Shown here one piece after another: positions 29,159-42,493 of a stretch of 42,493 nt of DNA. Each line of letters begins with the position of its first letter. Within the stretch, counting starts at the first letter, position 1. This DNA comes from Parcubacteria group bacterium GW2011_GWA2_43_13 (lineage in GTDB: Bacteria > Patescibacteriota > Patescibacteriia > UBA9629 > GWA2-43-13): contig LCFM01000012.1 of assembly GCA_000999025.1 (NCBI GenBank), forward strand, positions 1-42,493, given 5' to 3'. The notes beneath the pieces are model-generated. The model was not told where the DNA came from. It saw only the letters and a list, made by a program, of their open reading frames with translations, and made no database searches. Both the position numbers and the translations under genes were made by a program.

Positions 29159-29244
29159 GTAGAGACGCCCCGTTGGGGCGTCTCTTTTGTTGTAGAGACG
29201 TGCCGTTGGCACGTCTCTCGCGTTCCGTTGGGGCGCGTCTCTAC
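29159..29244. repeat. REP cluster upstream of the RAYT gene
   Basis: gtagagacgccccgttggggcgtctc...gtagagacgtgccgttggcacgtctc...gcgcgtctctac. Confidence 0.85.
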
Positions 29245-29270: not shown

Positions 29271-29840
29271 ATGGATGACTTGTATTACAATACATATCGA
29301 ATCCAATCATCGCGATACCCTGGATACAACTATGCATCCGAGGGCTTTTATTTTGTCACATGGTGCGTAAAGGAGATGACGTGTGTGTTGTCGAAGATAG
29401 TTAATGATGAGGTGAAGTTATTTTCGATGGGGAGTATTGTGGAAGAAGAAATTTTGAAAACAGAAAAGGTGAGAAGAGGGGTTCTTATTGATTCTCATGT
29501 TATTATGCCGAATCATGTGCATTGTATTTTTCATATTGCGTGTAGAGACGCCCCGTTGGGGCGTCTTGAGTCAACGGAGCGAGAAGAAAACGAGAATACG
29601 CCATTACAAAAAGAAGACGCGCCAACGGCGCGTCTCTACAGGAGTTCTATTGGATCAATAGTAAACCAGATAAAATCTCAATCAACAAAGCGTATTTGTC
29701 AGAGCCATGACAATGCTTTTCAATGGCAATCACGCTTTTACGACCATATTATCCGCAACGACGATGACCTTGAAAAACATCGCTTGTATATAGGTATCAA
29801 TTCCGTAAAATGGCCACAAGACGAGTATTTTATCGTGTAG
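29271..29840 (+). CDS. IS200-like Y1 (HUH) transposase, REP-associated tyrosine transposase (RAYT)
   Basis: GFYFVTWCVKE, HVIMPNHVHCIFHI (HxH) and FQWQSRFYDHIIRNDDDLEKHRLYIGINSVKWPQDE family motifs; flanked by REPs on both sides and contains a REP pair. Confidence 0.85.
   Translation: MDDLYYNTYRIQSSRYPGYNYASEGFYFVTWCVKEMTCVLSKIVNDEVKLFSMGSIVEEEILKTEKVRRGVLIDSHVIMPNHVHCIFHIACRDAPLGRLESTEREENENTPLQKEDAPTARLYRSSIGSIVNQIKSQSTKRICQSHDNAFQWQSRFYDHIIRNDDDLEKHRLYIGINSVKWPQDEYFIV
29542..29639. repeat. REP pair inside the RAYT CDS
   Basis: gtagagacgccccgttggggcgtctt...gacgcgccaacggcgcgtctctac, translated as CRDAPLGRL...EDAPTARLYR. Confidence 0.85.
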
Positions 29841-29892
29841 AGACGTCCCGATGGGACGTCTCACCGGAGACGCGGCACCGCCACGTCTCTAC
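29837..29892. repeat. REP pair downstream of RAYT, providing its TAG stop
   Basis: gtagagacgtcccgatgggacgtctc...gagacgcggcaccgccacgtctctac. Confidence 0.85.
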
Positions 29893-30338
29893 AATTTCGT
29901 CACCGGTTCAAAGCAAATAAAATATCCTTTTTCAAGTGTGCGAGTTTTAAGGCACTGGGAAAAATTCGTAAAAATAACAGGATACTGATCTGGTTCATCA
30001 TGGATTTTTTGATAAATAGATACAAATTCATCTTTGGGAAAATAAATCGCAACAGCAGGAGTGCCTTTATCTGTTGTTGTTTTTTTAGCGGAAAATCCCC
30101 CCCATGTTTTAAATGGTTTAAATGTTCCGTTGTTAGGCAAGCGGAGGGCAACAGTGCCAAGGTTTTGTTTTATCTCTCTGCCGCCAACTAATTCCCATTG
30201 CTCTGTTGTATATTGAAAAGGAGGTAAATATGACGATTGAATTAATACCGTAATGATTGCGATGATGATGGAGCCAATATATGCGGATTGGCGCGGATAT
30301 AACCTGATGATTTGGTGTGTGATATGAGGTATATTCAT
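29889..30338 (-). CDS. Hypothetical membrane-anchored protein (149 aa)
   Basis: One TM near the N-terminus (YIGSIIIAIITVLIQSSYL); divergent from lexA. Confidence 0.55.
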   Translation of the reverse strand: MNIPHITHQIIRLYPRQSAYIGSIIIAIITVLIQSSYLPPFQYTTEQWELVGGREIKQNLGTVALRLPNNGTFKPFKTWGGFSAKKTTTDKGTPAVAIYFPKDEFVSIYQKIHDEPDQYPVIFTNFSQCLKTRTLEKGYFICFEPVTKL

Positions 30339-39981: not shown

Positions 39982-40005
39982 AGACGCATGGCAATACGTC
40001 TCTAC
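39978..40005. repeat. Single REP hairpin overlapping the stop codon
   Basis: gtagagacgcatggcaatacgtctctac. Confidence 0.75.
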
Positions 40006-40021
40006 AAAATATTGCGTCCGT

Positions 40022-40091
40022 GTAGAGACGTGCCGTTGGCACGTCTCCGATCAACGCGCGGATTGAGAACTCCCTATCGGGATGTCTCTAC
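40022..40091. repeat. REP pair
   Basis: gtagagacgtgccgttggcacgtctcc...ccctatcgggatgtctctac. Confidence 0.75.
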
Positions 40092-40146
40092 AACGGCTCT
40101 CATGAGCAATACGTCCAATTTGAAAAATGTGCTATACTTTTACTAT

Positions 40147-42493
40147 ATGAAACGCATAGCGATTTTTTTGACTGCTTTTGTCATGATAATCTTTCCTTTA
40201 GAAAGTGCATTTTCGTATACTGTAGAGACGCCCCGTTGGGGCGTCTCCGCACCGGACGCGACGAGACGCACCAACGGTGCGTCTCTACAGATCCCGGGCC
40301 AAGTGCTTGTTCAAAAAAAGGGTGAAGCCGTGCCAGAATTATATTTGTTCGATCCCGCACAACAAACACTCGATGATGTGATCAATCAATTAAAACACGC
40401 GTCTGATGTTATTCATGTTCAGCCGAATTTTGATTATGACGCTGTAGAGACGCGCCCCTGGCGCGTCTCGATCGATGAGACGCCACAGGGTGGCGTCTCT
40501 ACTGTAATGTATGGCGATAACACTTCATTTCACACTGTCGCCACAGCAGTGTCCAATGATCAATTCATTTCTGATCAAACATACCTTGATCAAATTCATG
40601 TCGGCCCGGTGTGGGATCATGCCACCCGCGGAAGTCATGAGGTAGTGGTAGCAGTTATTGATACCGGATTAGACATAGATCATCCTGATTTGATTGACAA
40701 TATTTGGACAAACAAAGATGAAATAGAAAATAATGGGATAGATGATGATAACAACGGGTTTATTGACGATCGTCATGGCTGGGATTTTAACCATAACACC
40801 TATCAGCCAGAAGCAAAATTAGACAGCAAAGGATACACAGTAGAGGCGTTAACTCATGGCACGGTTGTGGCAGGCATTATCGGCGCTCGGGGTAATAACG
40901 GTATTGGCGTTACTGGTATTGCTCAAACAGTACAACTCATGGGCTTGAAAGCGCTTAACGGGCTTGGGCACGGCAATACGCTTGATGTTGTCAAGGCAAT
41001 TATGTATGCAAAAGAAAATGGCGCTGATGTTATTAATATGAGTTTTGTCGGTCATTTAAAAGATGATATTTTAAAAGACGCAATCCGCGATGCGTATGAA
41101 TCAGGCATTATCATTGTTGCGGCAGTAGGGAATGACGGCGCGTCTGACACAAGCGACGACGTTGGCGATCTTGACATCAATCCTTTGTACCCCGGGTGTA
41201 TTGATGAAAAAGTTGCAGGAAAAAATTGGATTCTTGGAGTTGCGTCAGTTGATCAAAAAGATCGGCGTTCGCGGTTTTCGAGTTTTGGCACAACATGCGT
41301 TGACTTGGTTGCTCCGGGAGAAGGAATTTTTAATACCCAAATTTGGAATGCCAGCATTGGCGGCCTTGAAAAAGCGTATCGCGGAAACTGGAACGGCACC
41401 TCATTTGCCGCGCCAATGGTTGCCGGCGCCGCCGCGCTTATTAAAAGTTATGCTCCCGGGTTATCAGCAAAAGAGGTGTATGATTATCTTGTTTATAATG
41501 CCGATGATATCGTTGGAAAAAATTCGGAATTGACTGGAAAGTTAGGATTCGGTCGCTTGAGTATTGAGAAGGCATTTACTTCAATTGATACCTATGCGCC
41601 TGCGTCTGCTTTTGTGTCTGCTTATGTATCTCGGCAAAAAAAAGTGATTGAACGATCGTTTTTTGTGGCAGGAGCAGGTCAGGGCATGGATCCTTGGGTG
41701 CGCCTATGGTCGTATGATGGCATTTTGCAACATGAATTTTTAGCATATGATAAAACCATGAAAGCAGGGGTCTCTGTTGCATTGGGAGATGTGAATAATG
41801 ATAATGAACTGGAAATTATCACCGGCCCGGCAACTCCTGCTGTGTCTCCAGTCCGCGTATTTAATCTTAAAGGTGTTCTTTTAAAAGAATTTCAAGCTTT
41901 TCCTTCTCACATCAAAATAGGTATACACATTGCCAGTGGTGATGTGTTGGGAAATAGTAAAGATGCCATTGTCATCGGAGCCGGCAATGGTGGCGGTCCT
42001 ATGATCCGCGTGTTTAACGGAGATGGGGAAATGGTCTCGCAATTTTTTGCAGGAGACAGGGCTGGCAGGCAAGGGATTTCGTTTGCATTGGGAGATACGG
42101 ACGGCAATGGCATTGATGAAATAGGTGCCATTACAAGCATTGCTAAAAAAAATACTATTACTTTTTATAATGCATACGGCGGAGTTGAAAGAGTAACATC
42201 AGTGCAAGAGGGCGCGCTCCCGCTTGGCAGGGATATTGTGATTGCCGAAAATGCTGTTGATACAGGTGAAGCGCGAATTATTACCGGGTCAGCTCAAGGA
42301 GAGCAAGCAGATGTGAAGATTTTTTCACTTGATGGTAGAATGGTAAAAACAATTCCGTTATTCAATCGGTTGTTAAAAAGCGGAATAACACTCACTCTTG
42401 CGGACGCGAATGCTGATGGTAAAAAAGATATTATCGCAACTCCCCGCAGAGGAGGTGGCCCGCAGGCGCAGATGTTCGATTTGGATGGAAAAG
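40147..42493 (+). CDS. S8 subtilisin-like protease with signal peptide, propeptide and FG-GAP-like repeats (truncated by window end)
   Basis: Not in the ORF track because it runs off the window. Frame 1 is open from ATG 40147 to the end. Signal MKRIAIFLTAFVMIIFPLESAFS; catalytic VVVAVIDTGLDIDHPDL (Asp), THGTVVAGIIGA (His), GTSFAAPMVAGAAAL (Ser); C-terminal GDVNNDNELEIITGP / GNSKDAIVIGAGNGGGPMIRVFNGDGE repeats. Confidence 0.92.
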   Translation, partial: MKRIAIFLTAFVMIIFPLESAFSYTVETPRWGVSAPDATRRTNGASLQIPGQVLVQKKGEAVPELYLFDPAQQTLDDVINQLKHASDVIHVQPNFDYDAVETRPWRVSIDETPQGGVSTVMYGDNTSFHTVATAVSNDQFISDQTYLDQIHVGPVWDHATRGSHEVVVAVIDTGLDIDHPDLIDNIWTNKDEIENNGIDDDNNGFIDDRHGWDFNHNTYQPEAKLDSKGYTVEALTHGTVVAGIIGARGNNGIGVTGIAQTVQLMGLKALNGLGHGNTLDVVKAIMYAKENGADVINMSFVGHLKDDILKDAIRDAYESGIIIVAAVGNDGASDTSDDVGDLDINPLYPGCIDEKVAGKNWILGVASVDQKDRRSRFSSFGTTCVDLVAPGEGIFNTQIWNASIGGLEKAYRGNWNGTSFAAPMVAGAAALIKSYAPGLSAKEVYDYLVYNADDIVGKNSELTGKLGFGRLSIEKAFTSIDTYAPASAFVSAYVSRQKKVIERSFFVAGAGQGMDPWVRLWSYDGILQHEFLAYDKTMKAGVSVALGDVNNDNELEIITGPATPAVSPVRVFNLKGVLLKEFQAFPSHIKIGIHIASGDVLGNSKDAIVIGAGNGGGPMIRVFNGDGEMVSQFFAGDRAGRQGISFALGDTDGNGIDEIGAITSIAKKNTITFYNAYGGVERVTSVQEGALPLGRDIVIAENAVDTGEARIITGSAQGEQADVKIFSLDGRMVKTIPLFNRLLKSGITLTLADANADGKKDIIATPRRGGGPQAQMFDLDGK
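40222..40288. repeat. REP pair in frame inside the subtilase, directly after the signal peptide
   Basis: gtagagacgccccgttggggcgtctcc...gagacgcaccaacggtgcgtctctac, translated as VETPRWGVSAPDATRRTNGASLQ. Confidence 0.9.
40444..40502. repeat. REP pair in frame inside the subtilase, between propeptide and catalytic domain
   Basis: gtagagacgcgcccctggcgcgtctcg...gagacgccacagggtggcgtctctac, translated as VETRPWRVSIDETPQGGVST. Confidence 0.9.

Follow-up and report, generated by a model that had tools for sequence, protein, structure and literature searches.

The locus analysed here raises the question of why a RAYT gene (REP-associated tyrosine transposase, TnpA_REP) carries REP sequences inside its own reading frame, and whether these are merely tolerated there or retained as an element acting in cis. 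The gene is located in the window, i.e. the whole stretch of 42,493 nucleotides that was analysed, which is contig C12 of the 971-kb draft genome of Parcubacteria group bacterium GW2011_GWA2_43_13 (27 contigs, 93.5% complete, 970.5 kb scanned). The following features were identified in and around the gene:

29159..29184, plus strand: upstream flanking REP
29192..29217, plus strand: second upstream flanking REP
29271..29840, plus strand: RAYT/TnpA_REP coding sequence, 189 aa (open reading frame, NF047646, PF01797, AlphaFold core, Foldseek match to 4er8)
29505..29522, plus strand: HUH motif MPNHVH (H82, H84), neither histidine varying among 31 aligned homologues
29542..29567, plus strand: REP 1 within the coding sequence, GTAG foot at 29542-29545, read as (C)RDAPLGRL
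29568..29613, plus strand: in-frame 46-nt linker from REP 1 to REP 2, differing in length and sequence in the relatives L116 and L143
29614..29639, minus strand: REP 2 within the coding sequence, inverted, CTAC foot at 29636-29639, read as EDAPTARLY
29724..29756, plus strand: WQSRFYDHIIR (W152-R162), by alignment the counterparts of the GTAG-recognition residues of E. coli TnpA_REP
29787..29789, plus strand: predicted catalytic tyrosine Y173 (HRLYIGIN), invariant in 31 homologues
29837..29862, plus strand: REP overlapping the 3' end of the RAYT gene, its GTAG giving the TAG stop codon (29838-29840)
29867..29893, minus strand: second downstream REP, inverted and pairing with the REP at 29837..29862

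REP 1 (GTAGAGACGCCCCGTTGGGGCGTCTT, 29542-29567) and REP 2 (AAGACGCGCCAACGGCGCGTCTCTAC, 29614-29639) are both in frame in the 189-aa open reading frame, immediately C-terminal to MPNHVHCIFHIA, and encode the peptides CRDAPLGRL and EDAPTARLYR. A preliminary description had proposed a REP target in frame at 29542-29639, consisting of two hairpins between the HUH motif and the Tyr-containing region; the coordinates proved exact, both hairpins were confirmed and the pair was found at that place in an apparently intact RAYT. The two REPs are 93% complementary across 27 nt, i.e. an inverted pair (REPIN), and form a single long hairpin with a computed folding energy of -51.2 kcal/mol as RNA (z -5.5, 0/200 shuffles) and -30.2 as DNA (z -5.6). 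Chance resemblance to REPs was excluded by this complementarity, by the genome-wide family and by the folding of both RNA and DNA compared with shuffles. The gene is flanked by two REPs upstream and two downstream, and further REPs are dispersed elsewhere in the genome.

The protein matches NF047646 (REP-associated tyrosine transposase) with an E-value of 3e-16 but with 59.6 bits, compared with a curated cut-off of 80, and PF01797 (Y1_Tnp) just above the cut-off (23.5 and 23 bits, respectively), while all 31 aligned members match NF047646 with E-values up to 1e-3. The score below the NCBIfam cut-off, together with this being the sole RAYT found in the genome, could be taken to mean that the insertion broke the gene and left the open reading frame as a relic. 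Such a degeneration is very improbable, as the HUH, Tyr and GTAG-recognition residues are intact, there are no stops, the core fold is confident and the reading frame is likewise open in homologues of the same architecture. H82, H84, Y173 and N177 are invariant in the 31 homologues, representing the HUH motif and a single catalytic Tyr followed by N, and the GTAG-recognition positions are filled by W152, Q153, D158, H159 and R162 with the E. coli spacing kept. The Y motif is YIGINS in the window gene, YIGMNP or YIGINP in near relatives and YIxxNP in most homologues. In the AlphaFold model the core has pLDDT >90 while residues about 90-122, the REP-encoded loop, fall below about 60, and the predicted loop (90-126) separates a strand (82-89) from a helix (127-146). 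The top Foldseek match was 4er8, TnpA_REP bound to a REP hairpin (E 1.2e-7, TM 0.54/0.62). From residues and model together the RAYT gene looks functional, with the REP-encoded segment predicted to be a disordered loop, and it does not resemble the inactive or degenerate RAYT that the preliminary description had considered.

When the complete genome was scanned, 154 REP hairpins were identified across 970.5 kb, 62 of them within open reading frames of at least 150 aa, corresponding to about 30 genes, and 41 genomic places have a 14-mer in common with the RAYT loop of the window. No second RAYT was found in this genome; one further RAYT-like match, at C1:31405, turned out to be merely the common REP peptide within a UvrD-like helicase gene. 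In-frame REPs as a phenomenon of RAYTs only could be rejected, since about 30 other genes contain them, on contigs C1, C2, C3, C4, C5, C7, C8, C17 and C23 (e.g. L028:9119-12292, minus strand), including the UvrD-like helicase and, with names assigned by eye from motifs, a DNA ligase, a tRNA-guanine transglycosylase and a leucyl-tRNA synthetase. In the UvrD-like helicase two REP sites, the first with clean flanks in the alignment, are lineage-specific in-frame insertions because they are absent from three relatives; a third site (about aa 758) was left unscored, as it lies in a poorly aligned stretch. For 28 other intragenic REP sites compared with G453, the nearest relative, many matches are shorter by about the size of a REP, as judged from coordinates (only UvrD was aligned).

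Several other observations were made during the scan. A gene resembling a UDP-sugar dehydrogenase (name read by eye) contains six REPs, and an open reading frame in the window, 39988-42492, which runs off the end of the contig, has five REPs in its N-terminal 170 aa. A second element, GAGACGGGGTTAACCCCGTCTC, is perfectly self-complementary and distinct from the REPs with their 3-nt loops; it is present in 16 exact copies (e.g. C1:22937-22958 and C1:30000-30021), several of them intragenic and read as VETGLTPSLQ or RRDGVNPVST.

One account of the RAYT insertion, which follows the reading of Quentin et al. (2018), is that in-frame REPs are nearly harmless in a peripheral, flexible loop and accumulate there neutrally. 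The region is called peripheral in that study (PMC6006769), the loop is predicted by AlphaFold to be disordered, about 30 other genes in the genome have in-frame REPs and at least two such sites, those in the UvrD-like helicase, are plainly insertions that are empty in relatives. We nevertheless consider a purely neutral origin rather unlikely, for reasons found in the relatives of the RAYT itself. While the UvrD sites are empty in three relatives, the REPIN of the RAYT is common to both RAYTs of G453 (58% identity), which carry it with the same 3' junction and with stems that have changed yet are still paired. Of the self-insertion that had been proposed for the window gene, the derivation of the pair from REPs stands, but in this nearest relative the pair is shared and not newly inserted.

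To compare the loop more widely, 66 distinct homologous RAYTs with available DNA were retrieved by similarity to the window protein; they are mutually related, so that the counts below are not independent events, and the loop boundaries are heuristic. A REP-like peptide was found at the same position in nearly all 66, derived from differing REPs (VETPRRGVST, VETHCNASLQ, CRDEALPRLY and VEKIHEFSLQ are examples), within an insertion of variable length (18 to 294 nt) that separates the HUH strand from helix C. A REP is not obligatory there, as the short loops of a few relatives, L102 and L022 among them, lack one. REP-encoded peptides at this place were what the preliminary description had suggested looking for in homologues. 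The opposite outcome, an ancient conserved loop unrelated to REP, was rejected on the REP peptides, hairpins and palindromes across the homologues, the loop being REP-derived in nearly all of them. The arrangement is also not peculiar to this gene.

The loops contain hairpins with a stem score of at least 8 in 58 of the 66 homologues (mean 12.6 compared with 6.2 in control windows from the same genes). A complete 28/29-nt GTAG...CTAC palindrome is present in 46 loops, and 565 of the 567 stem pairs in these loops are Watson-Crick, with stems that differ. All four stop-free combinations of frame and length are used (21, 9, 10 and 6 loops) and the TAG-reading frame never; the four encode unrelated peptides, VET..SLQ, VET..VST, CRD..VST and CRD..RLY. 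Since frame, length and stem sequence vary while the pairing persists, the common feature is the palindrome and not the peptide, and in these alignments it is the DNA hairpin that is conserved. A function of the encoded peptide itself, for example as part of DNA binding, could be imagined because the peptides are often Arg-rich and close to the HUH domain, yet peptides so unrelated, in a segment predicted to be disordered, make it hardly credible. Wobble pairs, compared in sense and antisense orientation as a sign of selection on RNA or DNA, amounted to just one of each.

Two further features were seen among the homologous proteins. L012, L113 and L132 have a second, earlier insertion (alignment columns 61-71), representing a second permissive site, which is REP-like in two of them (VGADGCRPDNN in L012 and VGADQCVCPNP in L113). 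In the Bacteroidetes members L011, L013, L014 and L015 GTAGAGAAAATTCATGAATTTTCTCTAC (VEKIHEFSLQ) is present in the loop in one to three copies, tandem or truncated, which suggests that the internal REP was duplicated locally.

As the homologue loops nearly always hold a REP, the RAYT case is not just another accident. Neutral tolerance explains that the loop accepts REPs but not the near-universal perfect palindrome, the occupancy being too high and the palindromes too perfect (46/66 loops, 565/567 pairs); the account is probably incomplete and the REP looks like a retained cis element.

Retention was also indicated by comparing the internal REPs with one another. Identical REPs of 28-31 nt occur in RAYT pairs of only 48-55% core identity (L090/L091, 31/31 nt; L132/L138, 29/29; L109/L125, 29/29; L117/L118/L119/L126, 28/28), and among pairs at 40-60% core identity, where four-fold sites match at 29% and are saturated, 17 have identical 9-nt arms. 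Persistence of identical REPs between RAYTs with saturated synonymous sites again speaks against mere tolerance. REP similarity follows similarity of the RAYT core (Mantel r 0.40, p 0.0005, n=46) and an arm is common to a RAYT and its nearest relative in 19 of 46 cases compared with 2.3 expected; by these measures the REP sequence tracks RAYT ancestry. The genome G417, with several RAYT paralogues (L118, L159, L160 and L162) carrying three different internal REPs, would be suited to a test of cognacy.

When 33 whole genomes were searched for perfect GTAGAGAC...GTCTCTAC palindromes, 1 to 30 were found per genome. Of the 66 perfect palindromes in the ten genomes that were listed in full, 9 are located inside RAYT genes, against an expectation of about 0.07 (a hand count from RAYT length and genome size), an excess difficult to reconcile with neutral accumulation. 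Searches with the internal REP gave no other detectable copy in the whole genomes G556, G409 and G277, and nothing beyond weak partial matches next to the same gene in G305; REP copies in draft genomes may be lost at contig ends. Such genomes have no other copy from which a tolerated REP could be inserted. A k-mer comparison of loop REPs with distant stretches gave 1.5 matches per 100 kb in the own genome and 0.30 in other genomes, with 8 of 22 loop REPs lacking a match in about 50-80 kb; the whole-genome searches are preferred because paralogous RAYTs inflate the gene controls of the k-mer test.

Selection might also act without any regulatory role, on the selfish pair alone, if RAYT lineages carrying their substrate were able to establish REPs anew following a loss or a horizontal transfer. 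The patchy distribution of RAYTs (present in 43 of the 380 genomes sampled from the phylum), the inheritance of REP type with RAYT type and the single-copy genomes, which resemble pairs yet to spread, agree with such a seed. We regard the seed as sole explanation as improbable: flanking REPs could do the same job without a burden on the protein, and selection at the level of lineages is a weak force for maintaining 13/13 perfect pairs.

We thus lean towards reading the window gene as a RAYT of the subclass 2.4 (group 4) kind with an embedded REPIN of cognate type, whose palindrome is retained as a cis site. For group 4 as a whole we hold the chances to be evenly balanced that the internal REP is a selected cis element, an embedded substrate copy evolving together with the enzyme and persisting even without any other genomic copy, serving self-control or as a linked seed. 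The REPIN occupies, in frame, the loop that follows the HUH strand and precedes the next helix, and the palindrome would be kept because the RAYT itself binds or cleaves it, with either single-stranded DNA of the RAYT gene or a hairpin in the RAYT mRNA as candidate substrate. The outcome would be a self-limiting control site, a target seed copy permanently linked to the transposase gene, or both; these two are inseparable by sequence data, and autoregulation via the internal REP, as the preliminary description had it, is plausible. Against retention, a RAYT recently arrived with its REP by horizontal transfer could also appear single-copy, and the window gene has many genomic REP copies, which makes renewal of its loop from elsewhere possible.

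The arrangement bears on what holds RAYTs and REPs in association and on the persistence of these non-mobile transposases. A substrate that lies within the enzyme's reading frame and is conserved at the DNA level, with a drifting peptide, offers a clean experiment: synonymous recoding could remove the palindrome with the protein unchanged, so that any effects in cis on expression, on binding of the REP and on the spread of REPs become separable. The internal REP also labels the probable target of each enzyme, giving a natural list of cognate RAYT-REP pairs for specificity studies.

The retention evidence (a palindrome that is kept, identical REPs at saturation and single-copy genomes) could be new, as it was not found in the literature searched, although it may exist elsewhere; subclass 2.4 goes unmentioned in a later paper on REP recognition (PMC8266576). 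GTAG REPs within unrelated genes are known, for example in Opitutus terrae (Di Nocera et al. 2013, PMC3733652), and resemble those described here in being in frame in many genes, UvrD-type helicases and DNA ligase among them, and in giving a TAG stop. They differ in that the UvrD-like helicase sites of the present genome are empty in relatives while the RAYT loop is not. Rickettsia palindromic elements (RPE) are likewise palindromic repeats spread in frame within protein-coding genes, but their host genes are not RAYTs and their sequences are other, RPE-4 and RPE-6 being grouped with CGTC REPs (PMC3733652). E. coli TnpA_REP (PDB 4er8) shares the fold, the HUH-Tyr core and the GTAG-recognition positions (W94, Q95, E100, H101 and R104 in E. 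coli; PMC6006769), with E100 replaced by D in the window gene; the E. coli enzyme belongs to subclass 2.2, whereas internal REPs are, by the published description, a feature unique to subclass 2.4. The closest counterpart is TnpA_REP subclass 2.4 (RAYT group 4), in which a REP in frame within the tnpA_REP gene, between HuH and Y, is a unique and predominant feature, judged by Quentin et al. (2018, PMC6006769) to be of possibly little impact. The window gene has two single-foot REPs as an inverted pair where the subclass has one double-foot REP, and its Y motif is YIGINS compared with YIxNNP. The in-frame arrangement is in this respect known, and the window gene joins the subclass 2.4 kind as a new member.
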